Assembly (NCBI RefSeq): GCF_001700505.1
Contig: NZ_MAPV01000037.1
Coordinates: 1 to 64,000, forward strand
DNA from: Streptomyces mutomycini
Lineage (GTDB): Bacteria > Actinomycetota > Actinomycetes > Streptomycetales > Streptomycetaceae
Length of the DNA: 64,000 nt
Direction of reading: 5' to 3'
The notes under the pieces were generated by a model. That model ran no database searches. It had not been told where the DNA came from and saw only the letters and a program-made list of their open reading frames with translations. Made by a program: the position numbers and the translations under genes. Below, one piece after another: positions 19,305 to 33,409 of this stretch; positions within the stretch are counted from its first letter, which is position 1; the number at the start of each line of letters is the position of its first letter.

Positions 19305-20102
19305 GTGCACGCCTCCCTCATCCAGATAGCAGTAAACCCGGACGAATCGATCAATTCCCGTAGAGAGCACGCGGCTTCGCTGGTCGTCGCACAGCGGGGT
19401 GCGGACCTCGTGGTCCTCCCGGAGCTCTGGCCGGTCGGTGCGTTCGCCTATACCGCGTTCGCCGACGAGGCCGAACCGCTGCACGGACCCACGCACGACA
19501 TCATGGCGAAGGCGGCGGCGGAGGCCGGGGTCTGGCTGCACGCCGGATCGTTCGTCGAGCGCGCCGAGGACGGCGTCCTCTACAACACCTCGCTGGTGTT
19601 CTCGCCCGAGGGTGAGCGGGCCGCCGCGTACCGCAAGATTCACCGCTTCGGCTTCGACAAGGGCGAGGCCGTGCTGATGGGGGCCGGCGACGAACTCGTC
19701 ACCGTCGCCCTGCCGGAGACCTGCCTCGGCCTCGCCACCTGCTACGACCTGCGCTTCCCCGAGCAGTTCCGGGGCCTCGTCGACGCGGGGGCCGAAACCC
19801 TGGTCGTCTCGGCCGGCTGGCCAGAGCGCCGTCGTTCGCACTGGACGCTGCTGGCGCAGGCCCGCGCCGTCGAGAACCAGGCGTACGTCCTGGCGGTCGG
19901 GTCGGCGGGCACCAACGGGGGCGTCGAGCAGGCGGGTCACAGCATCGTCGTCGACCCGTGGGGCGAGGTGCTCGCCGAGGCCGGGGCGGGCGAGGAGGTG
20001 CTCACCGTGGAATTCGACCCGGCGAGGGTCGGTACCACCCGCGAGCAGTTCCCGGCTCTCAAGGACCGCCGCCTGGGCCTTGCACGGCGCCGCCTGTCCT
20101 GA
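19305..20102 (+). CDS. carbon-nitrogen hydrolase (nitrilase superfamily)
   Basis: This 265-residue amidohydrolase has all three catalytic residues: Glu in VVLPELWPVGAF (near 40), Lys in AYRKIHRFGF (near 112) and Cys in GLATCYDLRFPEQF (near 148). The arrangement fits the Nit/omega-amidase branch, which hydrolyses small amides such as ketoglutaramate; the exact substrate is inferred only. GTG 19305 has a weak upstream GGTGG. The stop precedes a parS site in a perfect palindrome at 20119-20154. Confidence 0.85.
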   Translation: MHASLIQIAVNPDESINSRREHAASLVVAQRGADLVVLPELWPVGAFAYTAFADEAEPLHGPTHDIMAKAAAEAGVWLHAGSFVERAEDGVLYNTSLVFSPEGERAAAYRKIHRFGFDKGEAVLMGAGDELVTVALPETCLGLATCYDLRFPEQFRGLVDAGAETLVVSAGWPERRRSHWTLLAQARAVENQAYVLAVGSAGTNGGVEQAGHSIVVDPWGEVLAEAGAGEEVLTVEFDPARVGTTREQFPALKDRRLGLARRRLS

Positions 20103-20118
20103 GCCGCACGGACGCGTC

Positions 20119-20154
20119 CCGGTGGCCCGGTTTCACGTGAAACCGGGCCACCGG
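20119..20154. terminator. 36-bp perfect palindrome containing parS; probable bidirectional terminator
   Basis: Eighteen bases on each side of the parS centre are exact inverted copies with no loop. The site lies between the convergent nitrilase and LURP genes, so it probably combines transcription termination with ParB binding. Confidence 0.7.
20130..20143. other. parS: parS centromere site (perfect)
   Basis: The second exact GTTTCACGTGAAAC in the window is intergenic and forms the centre of a longer palindrome. Confidence 0.9.
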
Positions 20155-20170
20155 CCTGTCCGGTCCGTTC

Positions 20171-20665
20171 TCAGTCGTCGTCGCGTTCCTTGTCCGCGAG
20201 GACGATCACGCACACTGCCACCGCGAGGAGCAGGGGCACGTCGGCGTCCTCGCGCACGATGTCGACGCCGTAGGTGTCGCGAACGGTCAGCCAGCGCCGC
20301 GAAACCTGGGCGAGCAGCTCACCGTCGTAGTCGATGGCGAATTCCCGGTCCAGGATCTTGCCGCTGACGTCCAGTTCGGTGCCGTCCAACAGGGTGACCC
20401 GGTAGTGGTTGCGCAGCAGCGAGAGGCGCTTCCGCTTGATCTTGGCGAGCTCGTCGCCGTCCCGTTCGATGAGCATGGTGTCGCGGAGGCTGATCAGCTT
20501 CTGGCGGATCTCCACCAGGACGCGGCCGTTCGTGTCCTTCAGCTCGAAGGTGTCACGGAGCCGCATGGCCTTGCCGTCGACGAGGAAGAGCTTCCGCCCG
20601 TCCGCGTCCTCGATCCAGTAGTCGTCGCCGACGCCGAACAGTCGCTCACGTACGAGAAGTCTCAT
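20171..20665 (-). CDS. LURP-one-related (YxjI-type) protein
   Basis: This 164-residue protein has the tubby-like beta-barrel of the LURP-one/YxjI family, seen as alternating strands: RLFGVGDDYWIEDADG, KLFLVDGKAMRL, RDTFELKDTNGRVL, TMLIERDGDELAKI and ILDREFAIDYDGELLAQVSRR. The final hydrophobic stretch (DVPLLLAVAVCVIVLA) may pack inside the barrel or touch the membrane. The molecular role of bacterial members is unknown. Its start codon overlaps a possible but unlikely ATG of the divergent gene (CATG at 20663-20666). Confidence 0.85.
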   Translation of the reverse strand: MRLLVRERLFGVGDDYWIEDADGRKLFLVDGKAMRLRDTFELKDTNGRVLVEIRQKLISLRDTMLIERDGDELAKIKRKRLSLLRNHYRVTLLDGTELDVSGKILDREFAIDYDGELLAQVSRRWLTVRDTYGVDIVREDADVPLLLAVAVCVIVLADKERDDD

Positions 20666-33362: not shown

Positions 33363-33376
33363 GTTCCACGTGAAAC
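33363..33376. other. parS: parS-like site, one mismatch
   Basis: The site reads GTTCCACGTGAAAC, 13 of 14 bases of parS. A second half-site (GTTTCACGT, 33402-33410) lies in the opposite arm of the aspS terminator. Confidence 0.55.
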
Positions 33377-33409
33377 AGTCCCCGGCCACCGGCCGGGGAC
33401 TGTTTCACG
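33369..33409. terminator. aspS terminator
   Basis: Perfect 19-base arms (33369-33387, 33391-33409) with a 3-base loop lie 27 bases after the aspS stop. Confidence 0.8.

Follow-up and report, generated by a model that had tools for sequence, protein, structure and literature searches.

We have found that a parS site of Streptomyces mutomycini forms the tip of a long, GC-rich hairpin placed midway between the stop codons of two convergent genes. The anatomy of this hairpin, the covariation of its arms and its dependence on gene ends are established, and a single short palindrome seems to serve two purposes, as a gene-end hairpin and as a ParB site. Our preferred explanation, which we hold to be probable, is that parS here tips a 3'-end hairpin of the ordinary Streptomyces kind, a putative U-poor terminator serving both convergent genes.

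The element lies at 20119-20154 of the window, the whole 64,000-nt stretch of DNA that was analysed (contig NZ_MAPV01000037.1). These 36 bp equal their own reverse complement, with arms of 18 bp, and an exact parS 14-mer (GTTTCACGTGAAAC; 14 of 14 consensus bases) occupies their centre at 20130-20143. On each side, 11 further bp outside the 14-mer are thus complementary, for which base composition gives a chance of about 1.5e-6 per site. The initial annotation had described 18 matching bases on both sides of the centre, a symmetry beyond what parS needs and a position exactly between two convergent genes, and these points are borne out by the following features:

19305-20102, plus strand: carbon-nitrogen hydrolase gene (CN_hydrolase), 265 aa, left convergent partner (ORF; Pfam PF00795, E 3.6e-52)
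20103-20118, unstranded: spacer of 16 nt between the hydrolase stop codon and the hairpin
20119-20154, unstranded: perfect palindrome of 36 bp, RNA hairpin on either strand (reverse-complement identity; RNA folding)
20130-20143, unstranded: exact parS (GTTTCACGTGAAAC), hairpin apex (sequence match)
20155-20170, unstranded: spacer of 16 nt between the hairpin and the stop codon on its right
20171-20665, minus strand: LURP-one-related (LOR) gene, 164 aa, right convergent partner (ORF; Pfam PF04525, E 9.4e-26)

The element had also been called loop-less, which is true of the DNA palindrome and false of the RNA: transcripts of either strand fold as a 16-bp stem capped by an ACGU tetraloop, at -34.6 kcal/mol (z about -6 on both strands; 0 of 200 shuffles as stable). 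Next to the hairpin base, three T's occur among the first 10 nt of the plus strand and one among the first 10 of the minus strand, and on neither strand does a U-tract directly follow the hairpin, as it would in an E. coli-type rho-independent terminator. An Rfam search of 19900-20400 matched no family. The whole assembly (410 contigs) holds 15 exact copies of parS and encodes a ParB-family protein (TIGR00180, 205 bits, above cut-off); the copy at 20130-20143 has an arm of 18, and perfect arms of 15-20 bases are found at three others of the 15. Streptomyces ParB binds parS sites in ChIP-seq, according to the accessible parts of PMC4852455 and PMC12511625, and would presumably bind the copy at 20130-20143 as well.

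Elsewhere in the window, at 33363-33405, a one-mismatch parS (GTTCCACGTGAAAC) lies 21 nt past a plus-strand gene. The outer end of a long hairpin is formed by the right half of this site (GAAAC) together with the closing GTTTC, and half a parS thus seems to act as the A/U end of an ordinary terminator-like stem.

The same junction was compared in 80 named loci collected with the LURP-one-related protein as query. An exact parS lies within 400 nt after the LURP-one-related gene in 38 of the 80, namely in 37 of the 38 best matches and in L045. In the tree, the window adjoins Streptomyces sp. HB132 and [Kitasatospora] papulosa; L026, sister of L017, has no parS at this junction. A perfect arm of at least 13 bases is found in 15 of the 39 parS loci (window included). 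Arm sequence varies by lineage, yet the arms are complementary within each locus: at offsets 9-20 from the centre, 0.534 of cells are complementary, compared with 0.368 for right arms exchanged among loci; the maximum of 1000 swaps (0.452) stays below the real value. Fewer than 8 of the 12 arm positions are paired in 24 of the 39 loci. In some loci with short perfect arms, such as L006, L021, L034 and L038, the parS region folds as a long hairpin in a shifted register.

A second parS junction follows a gene with domains PF01743, PF12627 and PF01966, which we take to be CCA tRNA nucleotidyltransferase. It was followed through 61 Streptomyces genomes sampled evenly over the genus, and all 61 carry one or more exact parS in the 260 nt past the stop codon of this gene; the next called gene is on the opposite strand at every one of the 61 loci. 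Two parS are present in 54 junctions, one in 6 and three in 1, and where they are paired they typically form two hairpins, each closer to one stop codon. Arm pairing exceeds that of swapped arms at both sites (parS1, 0.611 versus 0.396, z 12.8; parS2, 0.748 versus 0.501, z 16.6). Between sister species, compensatory double changes numbered 34 at CCA parS1, 25 at CCA parS2 and 12 at the junction of the window (cherries only; 19, 15 and 11 pairs, respectively), compared with at most 8, 9 and 5 in slid-register controls. The large excess of double changes at the true register points to compensatory evolution of the hairpin around a constant core, and a hairpin kept by compensatory change is what would be looked for in an I-shaped terminator of Streptomyces.

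The dependence on gene ends was examined in all 231 exact parS sites of 13 Streptomyces genomes. Their contexts come from strict calls of a simple, home-made, codon-based gene caller applied to genomes that are partly fragmented, and 9 of the 231, lying at edges, were kept as a separate class. Because arm position 8 is part of the 16-bp parS consensus and a 22-mer core recurs in genome G010, perfect-arm length was dropped in favour of the paired fraction at offsets 9-18, relative to swapped arms. The sites are related by descent, and swap tests leave this kinship in, while the sister-pair and slid-register counts remove part of it. Convergent sites within 100 nt of a stop codon show a paired fraction of 0.558 versus 0.329 in swapped arms (z 13.3, 78 sites), and codirectional sites within 100 nt after a stop show a moderate excess (z 4.2, 42 sites). 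No excess of arm pairing was seen in codirectional sites more than 100 nt from a stop (z 0.9, 46 sites), divergent sites (z 0.0, 11 sites), intragenic sites (z 0.4, 32 sites) or sites overlapping a gene end (z -2.1, 10 sites). These results are unchanged without G010. In other actinomycetes (59 of 79 genomes had a match; 30 loci were examined), the 57 parS included no class with a pairing excess and none called convergent. Taken together, the context tests and the null result outside Streptomyces indicate that the long arms belong to parS at Streptomyces 3' ends and not to parS or ParB binding per se. A survey of parS at gene-end hairpins in other Streptomyces, as the initial annotation had proposed, thus finds arm pairing near 3' ends to be recurrent.

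Several sites are worth recording individually. Codirectional-gap parS at L085:2994, L138:2501, L150:2506 and L191:2501 have perfect arms of 16-23 bases whose sequences differ by genome; the gap at L085:2994 follows a gene with a phosphoribosyltransferase domain. parS are often found close together, either in tight pairs whose starts are 18-24 bp apart or in pairs spaced by about 40-75 bp within double hairpins (L112, L143, L160, L189 and others). At 1330-1343 of the window, an exact parS lies in the 5' part of a 380-aa ORF (1298-2440; frame GTG TTT CAC GTG AAA) and also overlaps the 3' end of ORF 288-1340; similar sites in one cluster of parS loci have short arms. At L161:2577-2590, an ABC transporter gene (ABC_membrane/ABC_tran) has its GTG start codon inside parS. 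In the cluster of this type, parS overlaps a gene end in 9 of 16 members, and some members have a second parS alongside, sometimes long-armed.

Hairpin strength was compared between gaps with and without parS (40-300 bp, N-free, identical gaps counted once; 63 convergent, 195 codirectional and 37 divergent). The strongest 46-nt hairpin in convergent gaps has a median of -33.9 kcal/mol in the 39 with parS versus -33.0 in the 24 without; in divergent gaps the medians are -18.5 (5 gaps) and -21.5 kcal/mol (32 gaps), respectively. Convergent gaps are equally strong when free of parS, which implies that convergent Streptomyces genes usually carry such hairpins. At 50 convergent parS junctions (ten sites in junctions longer than 400 bp were left out), the strongest hairpin has parS at its apex in 21 and in its stem in 3, and lies elsewhere in 26. 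Double use of one sequence as parS and hairpin is therefore common without being universal. Where parS arms are short, another hairpin tends to take over, a weak trend (Spearman p 0.05 and 0.04, uncorrected for length or kinship) from an analysis in which the called junction lacked parS at 5 of the 61 CCA loci.

Arms that vary among species and yet are often perfect across many bases at once could also have a mutational origin, in which the parS palindrome promotes template switching by DNA polymerase, so that flank is copied onto flank with no selected function. A strand-specific test of G-U against A-C mismatches, meant to mark RNA-level selection, was null, and mismatches without strand bias are expected of a DNA-level process. 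In L042, set beside its near relatives, one arm resembles a copy of the other, as arm-to-arm copying would leave it. The excess is, however, confined to gene 3' ends, being lacking at codirectional parS distant from stops, at divergent and intragenic parS and at the 57 parS outside Streptomyces. The equal hairpins of parS-free convergent junctions moreover require a 3'-end explanation regardless. We regard template switching as an unlikely sole origin of the arms. Given the null mismatch test and the weak trend towards other hairpins, templated mutation may still contribute, and templating may supply variants on which selection acts.

The initial annotation had proposed a double-duty element that terminates transcription in both directions and binds ParB, so that transcription does not sweep ParB off its site. 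The first half, in which parS doubles as a 3'-end hairpin shared by both genes, is structurally well supported by the interspecies covariation of the arms, by the restriction to gene 3' ends and by an energy typical of parS-free convergent junctions. The purpose assigned to it gained no support. The view that a terminator is kept because transcription over parS would strip ParB or block its loading is favoured by the share of convergent junctions, which is 39 of 80 among parS gaps versus 24 of 215 among parS-free gaps from the same regions (odds ratio 7.6, orthologues counted separately). This enrichment is equally expected if convergent 3' regions merely permit palindromes. Many parS, moreover, lie in genes or over gene ends or start codons; the 32 intragenic sites among the 231, with the 10 more that overlap a gene end, indicate that transcribed parS sites are tolerated. 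In the accessible part of PMC10681803, RNA polymerase of E. coli and ParB condensates of B. subtilis are reported to disturb each other little in vitro, except for more long pauses. At 26 of the 50 convergent junctions with parS, moreover, a hairpin other than the parS one is the strongest. Insulation is, in our estimate, a quite unlikely reason for the pattern; protection from sweeping may be a by-product and is not needed to explain it.

A further reading would place the cause in ParB itself, with longer symmetry raising ParB loading or clamping at the strongest sites. In G010, many parS at loci L171-L183 share the 22-bp core CGAT-parS-ATCG, which is repeated in several contexts and is perhaps a species-specific longer ParB preference; some flank preference may thus exist in some species. 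At the junctions, however, arm pairing is kept and arm sequence is not, and the effect varies with gene context, as a protein's preference for sequence or symmetry should not. We judge ParB recognition very improbable as the source of the arms. Least probable of all, to the point of being hardly credible, is a DNA cruciform or topological element between the converging genes. The palindrome is perfect and the G-U strand test null, as a cruciform would have them. Convergent transcription generates positive supercoils, however, and these oppose cruciforms; parS-free junctions also match the hairpin energy, which needs no perfect DNA symmetry.

We therefore return to the gene-end hairpin tipped by parS. 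As described from Term-seq in the available text of PMC12207403, Streptomyces terminators have few U's (a benchmark of 3-4 in the 10 nt after the hairpin), have the longest and most stable hairpins, and place 3' ends about 4 nt from the stem; in S. griseus, structured non-motif 3' ends below -25 kcal/mol are likely I-shaped terminators (PMC8914203, in the part available). Together with the hairpin energy, this literature leads us to read 20119-20154 as a 3'-end hairpin that works in both directions, carries a ParB site at its tip and probably terminates or protects RNA. Several results count against this reading: the lack of a U-tract, most marked for the minus-strand transcript, the 26 convergent parS junctions whose strongest hairpin lies elsewhere, the 24 loci with few paired arm positions, the null mismatch test and the weakness of the trend towards other hairpins. 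In each transcript the arms would pair as a long GC-rich stem, with the parS half-sites closing it, and U-poor, very stable hairpins of this kind are the usual intrinsic (I-shaped) terminators of Streptomyces. The hairpin would stop, or fix, the transcript 3' ends of both convergent genes, either by stopping polymerase or by shielding ends made otherwise, for example by Rho and trimming. As duplex DNA, the central 14-16 bp of the same element would bind ParB. Outside the ParB site, selection would then act on the pairing of the arms and leave their sequence free, and would do so only at 3' ends that require a hairpin; a palindromic site may easily fit at, or grow into, the tip of a hairpin that a 3' end needs anyway.

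A bolder reading, which we offer tentatively and think more doubtful than not, is that Streptomyces built part of its centromere into terminators, the terminator hairpin at many 3' ends and the ParB loading site being one co-evolving element. If they are one element, ParB occupancy and termination may influence each other: ParB might, for example, be a roadblock that makes termination sharper, or termination might keep the loading site free. The number and position of parS would then be set partly by terminator evolution. Counts and mutants of parS treat the sites as ParB targets of 14-16 bp. Should many Streptomyces parS also be terminator tips, deleting or moving them would alter the 3' ends of neighbouring genes and confound segregation genetics. 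A terminator-tip role may also help to explain the frequent location of parS between convergent Streptomyces genes.

Among known systems, the chromosomal ParABS of Streptomyces shares with the present case the exact 14-bp parS (20130-20143), its 15 copies and a ParB-family gene. The ParABS literature treats parS as a short ParB target, whereas here it is also a hairpin apex. By word count, "terminator" and "intergenic" are absent from PMC12511625, PMC4852455 and PMC8743542, and the accessible part of the last, a parS census of 20 closed genomes, also lacks "convergent". A literature search by title and abstract found no description of parS in terminators; the oldest Streptomyces parS papers lay outside its scope, and an earlier mention is possible. 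The Bi-TEPs of S. clavuligerus, of which 55 are given genome-wide in the accessible part of PMC8269248 (a part in which parS is not mentioned), similarly use one region for the transcript ends of both strands, as predicted for 20119-20154. The A-tract/U-tract bidirectionality of Bi-TEPs, in contrast, is absent there. U-poor I-shaped Streptomyces terminators are alike in having a long, very stable, GC-rich hairpin shortly after the stop; the 10 nt next to the hairpin at 20119-20154 hold 1-3 U. This element differs in that its apex is fixed by the ParB site and in that its termination is predicted. The neisserial DNA uptake sequences (DUS) likewise place a DNA-handling signal in terminator hairpins, and closely spaced inverted DUS act as rho-independent terminators (PMC2397512, from the portion available). 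In DUS, two separate copies form the two arms and the signal serves uptake, whereas in the parS hairpin a single palindromic parS sits at the apex, the arms are free in sequence and the signal serves chromosome segregation. The parS hairpin would thus join the DNA uptake sequences as a second example of a signal for DNA handling that has merged with transcription terminators.
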